A DNA stretch of 34,458 nt, from contig VMGE01000002.1 in assembly GCA_007376395.1 (NCBI GenBank), positions 141,118-175,575 on the forward strand, given 5' to 3'. Shown piece by piece: positions 27,958 to 33,488 of this stretch. Made by a program: the position numbers and the translations under genes. Origin of the DNA: Microgenomates group bacterium Gr01-1014_5. Lineage in GTDB: Bacteria; Patescibacteriota; Microgenomatia; UBA8517; UBA10165. Positions within the stretch are counted from its first letter, which is position 1, and each line of letters opens with the position of its first letter. The notes under the pieces were generated by a model, which did no database searches, was not told where the DNA came from, and saw only the letters and a program-made list of their open reading frames with translations.

Positions 27958-28073
27958 ATTGGCGGCAAGTACAATACTATACCTGCCTGCAAGATGCAGG
28001 GTTGTATCTTGCGGAGGAGGTGAGATTTGACAATTTGTGCAAACAAATTGGTTGTTCACCCACGCCGCGTAAG

Positions 28074-28159
28074 CGGAGGGTAGAGGATTCGAACCTCTGC
28101 GGGTCTTGCGACCCAACTGTTTTCGAAACAATCGCCTTAGACCACTTGGCTAACCCTCC
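28074..28159 (-). tRNA. tRNA-Ser (anticodon CGA)
   Basis: Acceptor GGAGGGT/ACCCTCC, discriminator G, D-arm GCC..GGC, anticodon stem ATTGT/ACAGT with loop TTCGAAA (CGA), long variable arm GGGTC-GCAA-GACCC, T-arm AGAGG TTCGAAT CCTCT. CCA is not encoded. Reads UCG. Its first 23 nt overlap the 3' end of the Nudix gene. Confidence 0.95.
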
Positions 28160-28598
28160 CAATCCCTTTTTCTAAAACTTCTTTTTCACTCTTGAAAGAT
28201 AATTTTTTTAATGCTTCTTCTTCCAGCACCCAAACCGCTTCTTCTATTTCGTCCTCCCATTGCTTTTCTATTTTTGTGTCTTTGCCGTCCGTCGATTTCA
28301 TTAAATAAAAAACCACCACTTTAAATATTTTCTCTGTGTCCTGGACGAAAAAATACTTAATATCTTCTATCTTTTCCAATATCTGAGCACGCACTCCTGT
28401 TTCTTCAAAAATTTCCCGGATTGCTGTATCGGCTGACTTTTCGCCTCGGTCAATTTTTCCTTTTGGCAATTGCCAGCGTTTTGTCCCTTTGGGTTTAATT
28501 AACAACCACTCCCGTAAGTTGTGATTTTTGCGGAAAACTGCTCCTCCAGCGGAAAAGTGGCGAATTACTTTAATTTGGCTTTCTTTTCTTTTTGCCAT
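28137..28598 (-). CDS. Nudix hydrolase
   Basis: A 153-aa Nudix protein. The intact Nudix box GKIDRGEKSADTAIREIFEE followed by TGV fits GX5EX7REUXEEXGU, so it should bind metal and hydrolyse a nucleoside diphosphate-X substrate. Nearby WQLPKG and FFVQDTEKIFKVVVFYLMKS are typical strands. Closest in style to the AP4A/MutT-like group; substrate unknown. The gene overlaps the upstream degenerate Nudix gene by 34 nt. At its 3' end the last seven codons (GRVSQVV region) and stop lie within tRNA-Ser(CGA). Confidence 0.88.
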   Translation of the reverse strand: MAKRKESQIKVIRHFSAGGAVFRKNHNLREWLLIKPKGTKRWQLPKGKIDRGEKSADTAIREIFEETGVRAQILEKIEDIKYFFVQDTEKIFKVVVFYLMKSTDGKDTKIEKQWEDEIEEAVWVLEEEALKKLSFKSEKEVLEKGIGRVSQVV

Positions 28599-29005
28599 TG
28601 ACGCAAGACATCGTTTGCCTGACCTAAAACTTTCTGTTCACGGGCAAGCTCTAATTTGCGGCGAGCGCTGCTATATTTAAGCCACGATCCGTGAAGTGTG
28701 GCTGGGAATTCAGGTTTGCCTGTTCCTTGGCGCATTAAATAAACAATAACCCGCGCGTCTTGGGATTGCCCATTGTTTTTAATAGTCACATTCATCCGCC
28801 CAGCCTCTTCAAGAACAGTAATGCGCAAACCAGCACTTTCTTTTAAGTAACGGATTGCAGCGCTAACCGAGGATTCACCTCGCCTAACGTCGCTTTTAGG
28901 AATTTCTAGGCTATTATTGTCCTTAGATTTAACCAAAAACCACTCGTTCTCCCCGCTTCTCTCCCTAAAAGCTAATGCTCCAGCAATTAATTTATCAGTG
29001 ATCAT
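28565..29005 (-). CDS. Degenerate Nudix-fold protein
   Basis: A 146-aa protein with overall Nudix layout: LIAGALAFRERSGENEWFLV, a box-like segment SDVRRGESSVSAAIRYLKES then AGL, and ARVIVYLMRQG. In the box the REUXEE core reads RYLKES, so the metal-binding Glu pair is lost and hydrolysis is unlikely; a binding or regulatory role is possible. The C-terminal ~40 residues are basic and helical (SSARRKLELAREQKVLGQAN). ATG 29005 chosen; an upstream GTG at 29029 would overlap the tRNA-Arg gene. Tandem with the intact Nudix gene, overlapping 34 nt. Confidence 0.75.
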   Translation of the reverse strand: MITDKLIAGALAFRERSGENEWFLVKSKDNNSLEIPKSDVRRGESSVSAAIRYLKESAGLRITVLEEAGRMNVTIKNNGQSQDARVIVYLMRQGTGKPEFPATLHGSWLKYSSARRKLELAREQKVLGQANDVLRQWQKEKKAKLK

Positions 29006-29024
29006 GTTTATATTTGGCAGTTTG

Positions 29025-29096
29025 TGCACCCACCCAGAATCGAACTGGGATCAGCGACTCCGCAAGCCGCTACTTTATCCGTTAAGCTATGGGTGC
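29025..29096 (-). tRNA. tRNA-Arg (anticodon GCG)
   Basis: Acceptor GCACCCA/TGGGTGC, discriminator A, D-stem GCTT/AAGT, anticodon stem GCGGC/GTCGC with loop TTGCGGA (GCG), T-arm CCCAG TTCGATT CTGGG. CCA not encoded. Most bacteria read CGN with tRNA-Arg(ACG) edited to ICG; here the first anticodon base is a genomic G. Confidence 0.9.
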
Positions 29097-29117
29097 TCAC
29101 GTAGTGAGCGCACATAT

Positions 29118-29147
29118 GGTTCTGGCGAGCCAGGTTCATATGAGTGT
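29118..29147 (-). repeat. Hairpin with GAACC direct repeats upstream of tRNA-Arg
   Basis: On the minus strand GAACC-TGGC-TC-GCCA-GAACC (29118-29137): a 4-bp stem flanked by GAACC on both sides. It is preceded by ACACTCATATG, weakly similar to the tRNA-Arg 5' end (GCACCCATAGC). The same GAACC-hairpin-GAACC design is found upstream of two tRNA-Ser genes (30310-30333 and 30558-30580). Confidence 0.45.
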
Positions 29148-29156
29148 TTTTAATTT

Positions 29157-29708
29157 TTAACCCTCGAGTTGAACTCTTTTTGAAAGCCAGGAGGCAGCTT
29201 TATCTAAAAAGTTTGGCGCCGCTTCTTCATAAACGAGCCTTTCCTCGAGCTCGCGTCGCAAACGTTCTTTGTCTTGGCTTTGGATAACCATTTCCAGCCT
29301 CCACGGAGCTCTTACAGCCTCAACAATTAACAGTTCTGTCCCAAACGTTCCGAAACGGTCAGAAAACCAAAATCTCGTCAATTCATCCCAACCATACTTT
29401 TTACCCGCAAAATAAAGTCCCTTGTTAGTTAACTTATGTTCGACCTCTTCAGGCGGAATTGTCGAGAGCACGTAAAGTAAAAAATATAAAGCCGCTATCA
29501 CCGCTACCGGCAATAACCCTTCCAAAAAGAACATAACTAAACCAACAAGAATAGCGATCGCTCCAACAGTCGTAAAAAACTGCCGGTCGCGCCTCTTAAA
29601 TGGTCTAACTGGGGCACGCCAGGTGAAAAGATCTTCTTCGCGAACGTTTTTCAAAGTGCTCTCGGCGTCATCTTGCAGGGTAGTATGGGCTTGTTTTTCG
29701 GGCTCCAT
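29157..29708 (-). CDS. Two-TM hypothetical membrane protein
   Basis: A 183-aa protein. A charged cytoplasmic N-terminus (EKQAHTTLQDDAESTLKNVR) leads to LFTWRAPVRPFKRRDRQFF, two closely spaced TM helices (TVGAIAILVGLVMFFLEGLL; PVAVIAALYFLLYVLSTI), then a soluble domain with HKLTNKGLYFAGKKYGWDEL and RFWFSDRFGTFGTELLIVEA. That domain has the strand-helix character of bacterial PH-like (bPH) domains, ending in a helix (KERLRRELEERLVYEEA). No named family assigned with confidence. TGGTATACT (29728-29736) lies 19 nt before the ATG. Confidence 0.65.
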   Translation of the reverse strand: MEPEKQAHTTLQDDAESTLKNVREEDLFTWRAPVRPFKRRDRQFFTTVGAIAILVGLVMFFLEGLLPVAVIAALYFLLYVLSTIPPEEVEHKLTNKGLYFAGKKYGWDELTRFWFSDRFGTFGTELLIVEAVRAPWRLEMVIQSQDKERLRRELEERLVYEEAAPNFLDKAASWLSKRVQLEG

Positions 29709-29727
29709 TGCAGGGTTTTGTGCTCTA

Positions 29728-29751
29728 AGTATACCACTTTTCTGGTATAAT
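29728..29751. promoter_or_regulatory. Divergent extended -10 boxes (membrane protein and tRNA-Ser)
   Basis: Minus strand TGGTATACT (29728-29736) serves the gene at 29708. Plus strand TGGTATAAT (29743-29751) serves tRNA-Ser(GCU), whose 5' end is 52 nt downstream. Six nt separate the two boxes. Confidence 0.6.
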
Positions 29752-29761
29752 GGCTAGGTTT

Positions 29762-29788
29762 GGTAGGTCGCACAAGCAAAGCTTGTGC
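29762..29788 (+). repeat. tRNA 5'-end mimic and hairpin in the tRNA-Ser(GCU) leader
   Basis: GGTAGGTCGCA (29762-29772) copies the tRNA start GGTGAGGTCGCA (29804-29815) with one base missing. It overlaps a perfect 8-bp hairpin GCACAAGC-AAA-GCTTGTGC (29770-29788). Both lie between the promoter and the mature tRNA. Confidence 0.5.
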
Positions 29789-29803
29789 TTCCTTCCATTT
29801 CAT

Positions 29804-29891
29804 GGTGAGGTCGCATAGCTGGTCCATTGCGGGGGATTGCTAATCCCCTGAGTCGAATAGGCTCACGCGGGTTCGAATCCCGCCCTCACCG
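29804..29891 (+). tRNA. tRNA-Ser (anticodon GCU)
   Basis: Acceptor GGTGAGG/CCTCACC, discriminator G, anticodon stem GGGGA/TCCCC with loop TTGCTAA (GCT), long variable arm, T-arm GCGGG TTCGAAT CCCGC. CCA not encoded. Reads AGU/AGC. Confidence 0.95.
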
Positions 29892-29934
29892 CAACGTAAT
29901 AAATTGTTACACAATTTAAACGTTGCTGGAACGT
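29891..29934. repeat. Double-hairpin repeat, partial copy after tRNA-Ser(GCU)
   Basis: First 44 nt of the repeat, from the tRNA discriminator base: hairpin 1 (GCAACGT ... AAATTGT-TAC-ACAATTT ... ACGTTGC) plus TGGAACGT. The second hairpin is missing; the sequence diverges into A/T-rich DNA. Confidence 0.7.
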
Positions 29935-29968
29935 AAAATTACAAAATAATTTGTTCGTTTCGCCCTAT

Positions 29969-29990
29969 GAACCTGTTTTTAAACAGGTTC
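29969..29990. repeat. Perfect 22-nt palindrome
   Basis: GAACCTGTTT-TT-AAACAGGTTC, 10-bp arms, between tRNA-Ser(GCU) and the GIY-YIG gene. No T-tract follows, so a terminator is not clear. It includes the GAACC motif seen near other tRNA leaders. Confidence 0.5.
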
Positions 29991-30048
29991 TCTCAACTCA
30001 CCTTGCACAAGTTAGAGAAGCTAACGCGTGAGTTTTGAAACGAGTTTT

Positions 30049-30309
30049 ATGTACTATACGTACGTTCTGTTCAGCTTAAAGGACAAAAGCTTTTATATAG
30101 GTTACAGTTCTAATCTGAAAAAACGAGTAAAAGAACATGCGCAAGGAAAATCCTTGGCGACAAAACACAAAAGACCATACAAACTAATCTTTTATGAAGG
30201 ATTTATTAATAGAATTGACGCCAAGAATAGAGAAGAGTATTTAAAAAGCGGTTGGGGGTTTAGAAGTATAAATAAAATGTTAGTAAAAACACTTGGTGAG
30301 GTCAGATAA
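30049..30309 (+). CDS. Small GIY-YIG (UPF0213/YhbQ-type) domain protein
   Basis: An 86-aa stand-alone GIY-YIG nuclease-fold protein: YTYVLFSLKDKSFYIGYSSN then LKKRVKEHAQGKS (the GIY..YIG strands appear as TYV and YIG, with the conserved Arg in LKKRVKEH), KRPYKLIFYEGF, and the Glu-containing KNREEYLKSGWGFRSI. ATG 30049 begins at MYYTYV, as in the second copy at 32314-32559; a GTG at 30028 would add seven residues. The gene lies between two tRNA-Ser genes, and its last five codons and stop are formed by the copy of the next tRNA's 5' end (30291-30308). Confidence 0.8.
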   Translation: MYYTYVLFSLKDKSFYIGYSSNLKKRVKEHAQGKSLATKHKRPYKLIFYEGFINRIDAKNREEYLKSGWGFRSINKMLVKTLGEVR

Positions 30310-30333
30310 GAACCTGCGCTAGCGCGCAGAACC
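30291..30333 (+). repeat. 5'-end mimic of tRNA-Ser(GGA) with GAACC hairpin
   Basis: ACTTGGTGAGGTCAGATA (30291-30308) is identical to 30355-30372, which is the start of tRNA-Ser(GGA) plus 4 upstream nt; offset 64 nt. It is followed by GAACC-TGCGC-TAGC-GCGCA-GAACC (30310-30333), a 5-bp stem between GAACC direct repeats. Confidence 0.6.
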
Positions 30334-30358
30334 TTGTCTTTCTCTCCGCGTACAACTT

Positions 30359-30442
30359 GGTGAGGTCAGATAGCGGTTTATTCTACGCGCTTGGAAAGCG
30401 CGCGAGCGCAAGCTCACGCGGGTTCGAATCCCGCCCTCACCG
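30359..30442 (+). tRNA. tRNA-Ser (anticodon GGA)
   Basis: Acceptor GGTGAGG/CCTCACC, discriminator G, anticodon stem CGCGC/GCGCG with loop TTGGAAA (GGA), long variable arm CGAGC-GCAA-GCTCA-type, T-arm GCGGG TTCGAAT CCCGC. CCA not encoded. Reads UCU/UCC. Confidence 0.95.
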
Positions 30443-30525
30443 CAACGTAATAAATTGTTACACAATTTAAACGTTGCTGGAACGTTTCCCGCAAAACGGG
30501 ATTACGTTCCGCCAATCAAAGATTT
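30442..30525. repeat. Double-hairpin repeat after tRNA-Ser(GGA)
   Basis: Full 71-nt repeat (30442-30512) plus 13 nt (CAATCAAAGATTT) shared with the inverted copy at 26937-27020. Hairpin 1: GCAACGT/ACGTTGC outer and AAATTGT/ACAATTT inner stems. Hairpin 2: GGAACGT/ACGTTCC outer and TCCCG/CGGGA inner stems. No long T-tract. Confidence 0.8.
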
Positions 30526-30543
30526 TATGTTGCTAAGACATTC

Positions 30544-30580
30544 GGAGGGTCGGATAAGAACCTGCGCTATGCACAGAACC
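30544..30580 (+). repeat. 5'-end mimic of tRNA-Ser(UGA) with GAACC hairpin
   Basis: GGAGGGTCGGATA (30544-30556) copies the tRNA start GGAGAGGTCGGATA (30599-30612) minus one base. It is followed by GAACC-TGCGC-TAT-GCACA-GAACC (30558-30580), the same element as at 30310-30333 with a mismatch in the stem. Confidence 0.55.
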
Positions 30581-30598
30581 TTGTCCTCCTTTGAATTA

Positions 30599-30682
30599 GG
30601 AGAGGTCGGATAGCGGTTCATTCCAGAGGTTTTGAAAACCTCCGTCCGCAAGGACTCGTGGGTTCGAATCCCACCCTCTCCG
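30599..30682 (+). tRNA. tRNA-Ser (anticodon UGA)
   Basis: Acceptor GGAGAGG/CCTCTCC, discriminator G, anticodon stem GAGGT/ACCTC with loop TTTGAAA (TGA), long variable arm GTCC-GCAA-GGAC, T-arm GTGGG TTCGAAT CCCAC. CCA not encoded. Reads UCA and probably other UCN. Confidence 0.95.
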
Positions 30683-30752
30683 CAACGTAATAAATTGTTA
30701 CACAATTTAAACGTTGCTGGAACGTTTCCCGCAAAACGGGATTACGTTCCGC
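30682..30752. repeat. Double-hairpin repeat after tRNA-Ser(UGA)
   Basis: Full 71-nt copy, identical to 30442-30512. After it 30753-30853 holds no recognisable gene or site. Confidence 0.8.
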
Positions 30753-32313: not shown

Positions 32314-32559
32314 TTAGGGGTATTTACTGATTAGACGTTTGTTGCGGAAAGCAAAACCAGAGCTAGATTTTAGGTATTTTTCAAAGGAAATTGCTTTTGG
32401 CTTGGACTTAAAAGCACAATAGAACACCAACTCTTTATTAGTTGTCCTCGTATGAACAACCAGCCCTTTAAAATGTGTTTGTATTCGCTGTTTTAGGTTT
32501 GAAGAAAAGCCTGTGTAATAAGTGCCGTCTTTAAGTCCGAGGATGTAAACATAGTACAC
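32314..32559 (-). CDS. Small GIY-YIG (UPF0213/YhbQ-type) domain protein, second copy
   Basis: An 81-aa stand-alone GIY-YIG protein: MYYVYILGLKDGTYYTGFSS then NLKQRIQTHFKGL, NKELVFYCAFKSKPKAISFE and KYLKSSSGFAFRNKRLI. In the second half-motif the usual YxG appears as YTGF. It is related to the copy at 30049-30309 (shared MYYxY start, SSNLKxR). Such small proteins are common next to RNA genes in this type of genome; their substrate is unknown. It lies between comF and ssrA on the same strand. Confidence 0.78.
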   Translation of the reverse strand: MYYVYILGLKDGTYYTGFSSNLKQRIQTHFKGLVVHTRTTNKELVFYCAFKSKPKAISFEKYLKSSSGFAFRNKRLISKYP

Positions 32560-32584: not shown

Positions 32585-32665
32585 CCACTTCGTCAAGACT
32601 TCGCGGGACACCACGCTGTTTTACTTCTTGGTGCTGCGCACCGCGAAGCTTTAGCGGAGTGGTGG
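32585..32665. repeat. Palindromic repeats downstream of ssrA
   Basis: Two imperfect palindromes. One near 32583-32608 (TCCCACTTCGTC ... GACTTCGCGGGA). The other at 32639-32665, CACCGCGAAGCTTTAGCGGA then GTGGTGG, has the same AAGCTTTAGCG core as the family at 4320 and 12783 and overlaps the tmRNA 3' end. They may act as a processing or termination structure. Confidence 0.5.
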
Positions 32666-33023
32666 AGACGGAGGGAGTTGAACCCTCATCCGGCAAAACA
32701 ACCTTAAACGCGTCTACAAGCTTAGGTAATTGATATTTTTTAACAAACACATCTTCAAAAACCAAAAGTGCTAGTGTTTGCCTGATCTAAATTTTGTTCA
32801 AAACTCGATCGATGTTTTGAACTATCTCAACTAAGGTTGACACCCGTACTTTGCGGTTGAGCGCACAAAATACAGATGCAGACTAGTTTACGCGTATGCG
32901 TAAGCTAAACCTGATGGAACGGATTCATCCGTACCAGTTAGTTTTTAGTTCTGTTTAACGAGTATTAACCAAACTCGGCTTGCTGCGTGTTAATGTGCTT
33001 TCCCGTCGAAACCTAGCATCCCC
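32660..33023 (-). ncRNA. ssrA: Transfer-messenger RNA (tmRNA)
   Basis: 364 nt. The 5' end GGGGATGCTAGGTTTCGACG carries the universal GGTTTCGACGGG block. The acceptor stem GGGGATG pairs with CGTCTCC at the 3' end, and T-arm GAGGG TTCAACT CCCTC and an encoded CCA follow. The tag ORF most likely resumes at GGT (minus strand 32935) after AAAACTAACT, as in the Gly-resume tags of Bacillus, and reads GTDESVPSGLAYAYA then TAA (32888-32890). A small hairpin ACGGA-TGAA-TCCGT lies inside the tag. Rescues stalled ribosomes together with SmpB, encoded directly upstream. Confidence 0.95.
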
Positions 33024-33029
33024 ATGGTA

Positions 33030-33057
33030 CCCTTCCAAAGTTTTAGCGTTGGAGGGT
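33030..33057. repeat. Short palindromic repeat between smpB and ssrA
   Basis: CCCTTCCAAAGTTTTAGCGT then TGGAGGGT: an imperfect palindrome of the same family as 4320-4345, ending on the smpB stop codon and 6 nt from the tmRNA 5' end. Confidence 0.55.
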
Positions 33058-33488
33058 CAACGGTCTTTCAAGGCTATTTCTGCCTCGCGGTCAAGATCTT
33101 TGCGCCGCGTAGCTTCGCGTTTTTCAAACTGTCTTTTGCCTCGCGCTAAAGCCAGTTTTGCCTTGATCAAACGCCCCTTATTATATAGCGAAACAGGCAC
33201 AAGAGTCAACTTTTGCTGTTTCATTTTTGTCTCCAGAGACGTGATTTCAGCTTTGTTTAAAAGAAGTTTGCGCAGACGCAAAGGATCATGTCCTTGAATT
33301 CCGCCATGCGGAGGGATGTTTACACCCACCAGCCAAGCCTCACCGTCCCGAATACGCACAAAAGAGCTTCCGAGCTCAGCCCGACCCAGTAATAAGGATT
33401 TAGCCTCGTTACCTGTTAAGGCGATTCCAGCCTCGATACTCTCTAGTAAAAAATAGTCGTGCTTTGCGCGGCGATTAAAAATTTTCAC
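33057..33488 (-). CDS. smpB: SsrA-binding protein SmpB
   Basis: A 143-aa SmpB, which binds tmRNA, brings it to stalled ribosomes and mimics codon-anticodon pairing with its C-terminal tail. Visible: NRRAKHDYFLLESIEAGIAL then TGNEAKSLLLGRAELGSSFV, LVGVNIPPHGGIQGHDPLRL, RKLLLNKAEI and LVPVSLYNKGRLIKAKLALA, then the basic tail RGKRQFEKREATRRKDLDRE. The start is GTG 33488, 6 nt behind TACAAT (33495-33500), so probably leaderless. ssrA follows after 33 nt, a natural functional pair. Confidence 0.96.
   Translation of the reverse strand: MKIFNRRAKHDYFLLESIEAGIALTGNEAKSLLLGRAELGSSFVRIRDGEAWLVGVNIPPHGGIQGHDPLRLRKLLLNKAEITSLETKMKQQKLTLVPVSLYNKGRLIKAKLALARGKRQFEKREATRRKDLDREAEIALKDR

Follow-up and report, generated by a model that had tools for sequence, protein, structure and literature searches.

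The tag encoded by the tmRNA gene in the window, i.e. in the whole analyzed stretch of 34,458 nucleotides, ends in AYAYA, and comparison of tag tails and protease genes across the order and the phylum suggests that this tail has probably been re-tuned to the protease Lon after the loss of ClpXP, in parallel to the mycoplasmas. The locus comprises the following features:

32660..33023 (-): tmRNA (ssrA) gene, one-piece, CCA encoded (RF00023 and ARAGORN)
32888..32935 (-): tag reading frame GTDESVPSGLAYAYA followed by UAA (ARAGORN and covariance-model alignment)
32933..32935 (-): resume codon GGU (Gly) (covariance-model alignment and upstream motif profile of 138 relatives)
32936..32944 (-): frame-setting segment AAACUAACU, with UAA at -5 to -3 (profile of 138 relatives)
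32915..32936 (-): hairpin including the resume codon, inner stem ACGGA/UCCGU (folds and native-versus-chimera covariation)
32879..32913 (-): helix 5 with the tag end, UUACGC-AUAC-GCGUAA (folds)
33057..33488 (-): smpB, 143 aa, directly 5′ of ssrA on the same strand (PF01668, 2e-44; NCBIfam equivalogs over cut-off)

The window tmRNA scored 149.2 bits against Rfam RF00023 (gathering score 47), with all of the model (positions 1-374) covered. As read from the sequence, GGGGAUG and CGUCUCC are paired in its acceptor stem, with G3 opposite U, and are followed by CCA; the G3-U pair of the tmRNA acceptor stem serves for alanylation. A frame-setting UA(A/G) 5′ of the resume codon and a stop codon in helix 5 are both present, and so is the gene for the partner protein SmpB (33057-33488). 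Since this SmpB is closest to proteins of Candidatus Microgenomates (59% identity) and Woesebacteria (49-52%), the genome, called G000 here (0.93 Mb, 96% complete), is that of a candidate phyla radiation bacterium, and the locus serves ribosome rescue by tmRNA/SmpB in a Microgenomates (Woesebacteria-like) member of this group.

ARAGORN assigned gene positions 89-136 to the tag frame, i.e. 32935 down to 32888, which gives a tag of 15 aa with the tail AYAYA and Tyr as penultimate residue. Exactly this tag at 32888-32935, with an ending of -AYAYA and not -ALAA, had been proposed in the initial annotation, and it was confirmed by both ARAGORN and the RF00023 covariance model. The annotation had also advised to check the resume codon with a covariance model, as another frame with a standard -LAA tag would have spoken against it. 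The alignment upheld the frame, GGU-ACG being placed opposite GCa-AAC of the model and the preceding CUAACU opposite AUAAuU. In the upstream motif of 138 relatives, A is found at -4 in 138/138, T or C at -5 in 134/138, A at -3 in 125/138 and T at -1 in 106/138, and the segment 5′ of the window's resume codon agrees with this profile. An -LAA frame is ruled out because the covariance-model alignment leaves none and because the resume-codon segment fits the profile. A sequencing accident in one genome is ruled out as well, as the tail type is common to relatives.

Whole-genome searches found a tmRNA over cut-off in 49/57 genomes of the order and in 169/192 sampled genomes of the phylum. Among the matches listed, 196 loci were fetched (weaker matches and some second matches per genome were left out), from which 186 tags were read, the other 10 having no readable resume codon. 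For 49/186 tags the start was not the one given by ARAGORN; it came from our own motif scan (40) or from reading covariance-model alignments and frames by hand (9). The tags form three sets, namely 51 from the order (with genome G004 counted twice for its two tmRNA loci), 24 from other ClpP-lacking genomes and 111 from ClpP-containing genomes. In 7/57 order genomes, the threshold of E <= 1e-12 was not reached by any tmRNA match; these include G013 and G023, each a single contig, and G028, with a completeness of 99%. Real loss, a divergent form or loss at the filter may be the cause. A LOOT RNA (RF03000, 59.1 bits) was found at L037:2098-2211 (-), close to the tmRNA of G052.

The comparison with related tmRNA tags that had been recommended showed the aromatic-alanine tail type to be common across the order. 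An aromatic residue (Tyr, Phe, Trp) occupies the penultimate place in 30/51 tags and is found among the last four residues in 41/51; 44/51 tags are Ala-terminal and 36/51 carry Ala at -3. Tags ending in [YF]A[YF]A make up 18/51 in the order, 4/24 in the other ClpP-lacking genomes and 4/111 in the ClpP-containing ones. For YAFA the respective numbers are 11/51, 2/24 and 1/111, and NYAFA ends 6/51 and 1/24 tags, hence seven from ClpP-lacking genomes in all, versus 0/111. Aromatic residues at -2 do occur in 30/111 tags of ClpP-containing genomes, two of which have tags ending in AYAYA. The body and the length of the order tags are strongly variable and their tail types are mixed. The tag of G044 (L028) consists only of AKAEL before the stop, with a fitting resume codon, and that of its genus-mate G045 has 23 residues; a frame error or a decayed tag are possible explanations. 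In the Ala codons at -1 and -3 of the order tags, each of the four bases occurs at the third position, with an entropy of 1.84 and 1.98 bits there versus 0.47-1.16 bits at the first two positions. The aromatic residues at -2 are mainly encoded by four codons, TAC, TTT, TTC and TAT. Because the Ala codons are free in their third base and the aromatic -2 residues come from four main codons, the constraint acts on the peptide.

The initial annotation had named ClpXP/ClpAP and SspB as readers of the C-terminus and had asked for the ClpX/ClpP or Lon repertoire. Profile searches of the 57 order genomes found neither ClpX over cut-off (0/57) nor SspB (0/57), and ClpP passed the cut-off in 4/57 with weak matches throughout. 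Lon passed it in 54/57 and FtsH in 51/57, with some match in 57/57 for each of the two. In the window's genome, the ClpP search gave nothing at E <= 0.001, the sole match to the ClpX model (26 bits) falls inside FtsH, and Lon is full-length, with N-domain, AAA and protease domain. As ClpX, SspB and nearly all ClpP are missing, the named partners are unlikely to be the readers here. The further suggestion of an altered degradation specificity is partly supported, by the aromatic-alanine tails shared in the order, the missing ClpX and SspB, the near absence of ClpP and the full-length Lon; as far as sequences can tell, the earlier interpretation seems right in its direction. Besides Lon, about 53/57 order genomes (hand count) contain a protein made up of the Lon AAA module, without N-domain and without protease domain. 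In G000 it has 347 aa (L255:459-1502, on C7, outside the window; E 7.5e-104 against TIGR00763), and it could be a helper or a competitor of Lon.

In the phylum sample (n = 192), ClpX passed the cut-off in 3 genomes, ClpP (E <= 1e-12) was found in 154 and Lon (E <= 1e-150) in 36. Lon without ClpP occurred in 26 genomes, ClpP without Lon in 144, both in 10 and neither in 12, where low completeness of some genomes may mimic gene absence. Lon and ClpP are thus nearly exclusive across the 192 genomes, and the window belongs to the Lon branch. Since ClpP is present in 154/192 genomes and ClpX in only 3, all of one family, another unfoldase must serve most ClpP of the phylum. The loss of ClpX alone was considered as a driver of the tail change; the tags of the three ClpX genomes end in LAA, LAA and IAA, which, coming from a single family, is suggestive only.

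For the comparison of tails and proteases, the order was initially set wholly ClpP-, and G123 (ClpP match 1e-28) was counted as ClpP+. G004, G019 and G050 have ClpP matches far below the usual strength; the result stayed the same when these three were flipped and G004 was represented by one locus only. Several tail measures were compared, none of them fixed beforehand. An aromatic residue in the last four was found in 53/64 of Lon+ClpP- versus 42/102 of Lon-ClpP+ (p 8e-8) and [YF]A[YF]A within the last seven in 27/64 versus 6/102 (p 2.7e-8). Two aromatics in the last six occurred in 38/64 versus 27/102, and an aromatic at -2 in 34/64 versus 29/102. Kinship was handled by collapsing to one value per family (14 versus 58 families) and permutation, after which the first measure gave p 0.0007 and two aromatics in the last six p 0.011, whereas an aromatic at -2 was not significant (p 0.20). 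A strict rule by which genomes without ClpP carry an aromatic at -2 was rejected on this ground. Outside the window's own order, the link held for an aromatic in the last four (13/16 versus 42/102, p 0.006), but neither for -2 (5/16 versus 29/102, p 0.77) nor for two aromatics in the last six (7/16 versus 27/102, p 0.23). Tail and protease are therefore truly but loosely associated, and a single order contributes much of the association.

Recognition by ClpXP depends most on the last two C-terminal alanines (PMC7652416). The window tag resembles the canonical E. coli tag AANDENYALAA, which is read by ClpXP/ClpAP and SspB, in being short, Ala-terminal and added by tmRNA/SmpB, but its penultimate Ala is replaced by Tyr, so that it ends in -YA in place of Ala-Ala, and G000 has neither ClpX nor ClpP. 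A closer counterpart is found in the mollicutes (Mesoplasma/Mycoplasma). According to the literature, the M. florum tag ends in NYAFA and is read by this organism's own Lon (PMC9382460), mycoplasmas retained only FtsH and Lon among the AAA+ proteases (PMC8138137), and the ALAA tail is conserved in bacteria except mycoplasmas (review, PMC3985003). As in that system, ClpXP is absent from G000, Lon and FtsH are kept and the tail is of the aromatic-alanine type; the NYAFA ending of M. florum recurs identically in the 6/51 order tags. Differences are that the phylum is another one, that the window has AYAYA and not YAFA, that its 15-aa tag is shorter than the M. florum tag sequence given in PMC9097571, and that the present case is known from sequence.

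The mechanism we propose would run as follows. ClpX, SspB and almost all ClpP are gone from the order, in which Lon and FtsH are retained; in place of the ClpXP signal Ala-Ala-COOH, the tag has an aromatic-alanine tail (AYAYA); and Lon would recognize the C-terminal (Y/F)A(Y/F)A and then degrade the tagged protein, a switch that would have evolved in parallel to the NYAFA-ending, Lon-read tag of the mycoplasmas. The resume-codon hairpin, 5′ of the tail, would be folded in free tmRNA and opened once the mRNA-like part enters the ribosome. We infer both the role of the hairpin and Lon as the reader, the latter being the most likely candidate because gene content and tail type are the same as in M. 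florum and the mycoplasmas. For the wider picture the chances appear evenly balanced: the Clp protease may have disappeared from the class Microgenomates and from some further families of candidate phyla, and a Lon-read degron may have arisen there independently, in some genomes with the very NYAFA of the mycoplasmas, with the tail following the protease and the resume-codon hairpin strong only in the Clp-less branch.

FtsH as the main reader is an unlikely but not negligible alternative. Various hydrophobic or aromatic tails would then suffice, and their drift would follow from the loss of ClpXP only. FtsH is as widespread in the order as described above, and for E. coli a review names it as a protease of some of the tagged proteins (PMC3985003). 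On the other hand, it is the Lon+ClpP- genomes that tails with an aromatic in the last four accompany (the distribution of FtsH being known for the order only), and the nearest known ending, NYAFA, is the one read by Lon in M. florum (PMC9382460).

The YA repeat might also be a by-product of RNA structure, with the helix 5 palindrome UUACGC..GCGUAA forcing Tyr-Ala codons in the absence of any degron selection. Folding of the G000 tmRNA places the stop codon in the stem of helix 5 and the penultimate Tyr codon in its loop. In a subset of the order tags including G000, a stem UUACGC/GCGUAA spans codons -4, -1 and the stop, and TAC at -4 and GCG at -1 are associated (8/18 versus 2/32, p 0.002), which is what such a by-product predicts. 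Several observations speak against it: the penultimate aromatic codon lies in the loop in G000 and in others with the same stem, aromatic -2 codons are less paired than other -2 codons (1.2 versus 1.55 nt over 50 order tags), and the codon usage described above shows four main codons for the aromatic -2 and free third bases in the Ala codons. Tyr at -4 is thus partly fixed through base pairing of its codon with the stop and the codon of the final Ala, Tyr at -2 is free in the loop, and the YAYA repeat is partly RNA and partly peptide. RNA structure alone was not accepted as a simple claim for the aromatic tail and is kept as a minor, rather improbable rival. Most improbable is a degenerate tail, with ClpXP gone, tags drifting and only rescue (not degradation) left, for although the variable length and body of the order tags, the mixed tail types and the bare AKAEL of G044 would suit it, the Ala at the end of 44/51 tags and at -3 of 36/51 and the codon-position entropy typical of protein-level constraint speak against it.

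If a tail re-tuned to Lon is correct, this would be a second lineage with the mycoplasma-type switch, and a natural experiment within one phylum, where the end of the tag would change with the protease, the Lon/ClpP split making degron-protease co-evolution testable by comparison. Controlled protein degradation, where the pair from M. florum is in use today, would also gain new tag/Lon pairs. Among the papers listed in our literature searches, none dealt with this link between tag and protease in candidate-phyla bacteria; a tmRNA sequence database (PMC11915505) probably lists such tags singly.

A hairpin directly after the resume codon had been noted in the initial annotation. Such a hairpin exists, but the resume codon is part of it, with its first two bases and the preceding base paired, and from the resume codon to +19 the energy is -8.6 kcal/mol (38/1000 shuffles as good). 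Across the order, pairing is kept as the bases change (GGC/GCC, GAC/GUC, GCA/UGC, GCU/AGC). Covariation was measured by a chimera test, in which the 5′ ten bases were swapped between sequences, after exclusion of too-short tags and near-identical sequences. In the order (n = 41), the native mean was -4.03 kcal/mol versus -1.54 for chimeras, and 0/3000 chimeric controls reached the native value; the same was true (0/2000) for the 12 most different order sequences. The signal was less marked in the other ClpP-lacking genomes (n = 22, z -5.5, 0/3000) and small in ClpP-containing ones (n = 79, 35/3000; n = 32, 488/2000; n = 15, 101/2000). Frames shifted by 12 bases gave no hairpin signal (n = 18, z +0.6), and frames shifted by 24 bases a slight one (n = 19, z -2.1), which the proximity of helix 5 leads one to expect. 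A plain test of resume-codon pairing against shuffles was weak (30/48 versus 23.3 expected). Compensatory changes thus preserve the hairpin throughout the order, but hardly in ClpP-containing relatives.

Elements of this kind have been described. An E. coli hairpin U88-A100 is reported that may protect the resume codon (PMC8363625), and a helix m was proposed in 2005 from energy calculations, with comparative analysis undecided (PMC1168896). Like these, the present structure is a hairpin formed locally where the tag frame starts, with the resume codon inside it; unlike them, it is backed by covariation, and it is longer (footprint of about 20 nt, inner stem of 4-5 pairs). What seems to be new is the strong covariation in the Clp-less branch. 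It adds comparative evidence for a hairpin at the resume codon, for which these sources had relied on E. coli density and energy calculations.

Some further genes lie near the tmRNA in the window. A small GIY-YIG domain protein (PF01541, 2e-13) is encoded at 32314-32559 (-), 100 bases past the tmRNA 3′ end, and an ORF resembling it is found at 30028-30309 (+) beside tRNA-Ser genes. The region 28073-30683 contains five tRNA genes in 2.6 kb, namely four for tRNA-Ser (cga, gct, gga, tga) and one for tRNA-Arg, and tRNA-Ser genes are located near tmRNA/smpB in several relatives as well.
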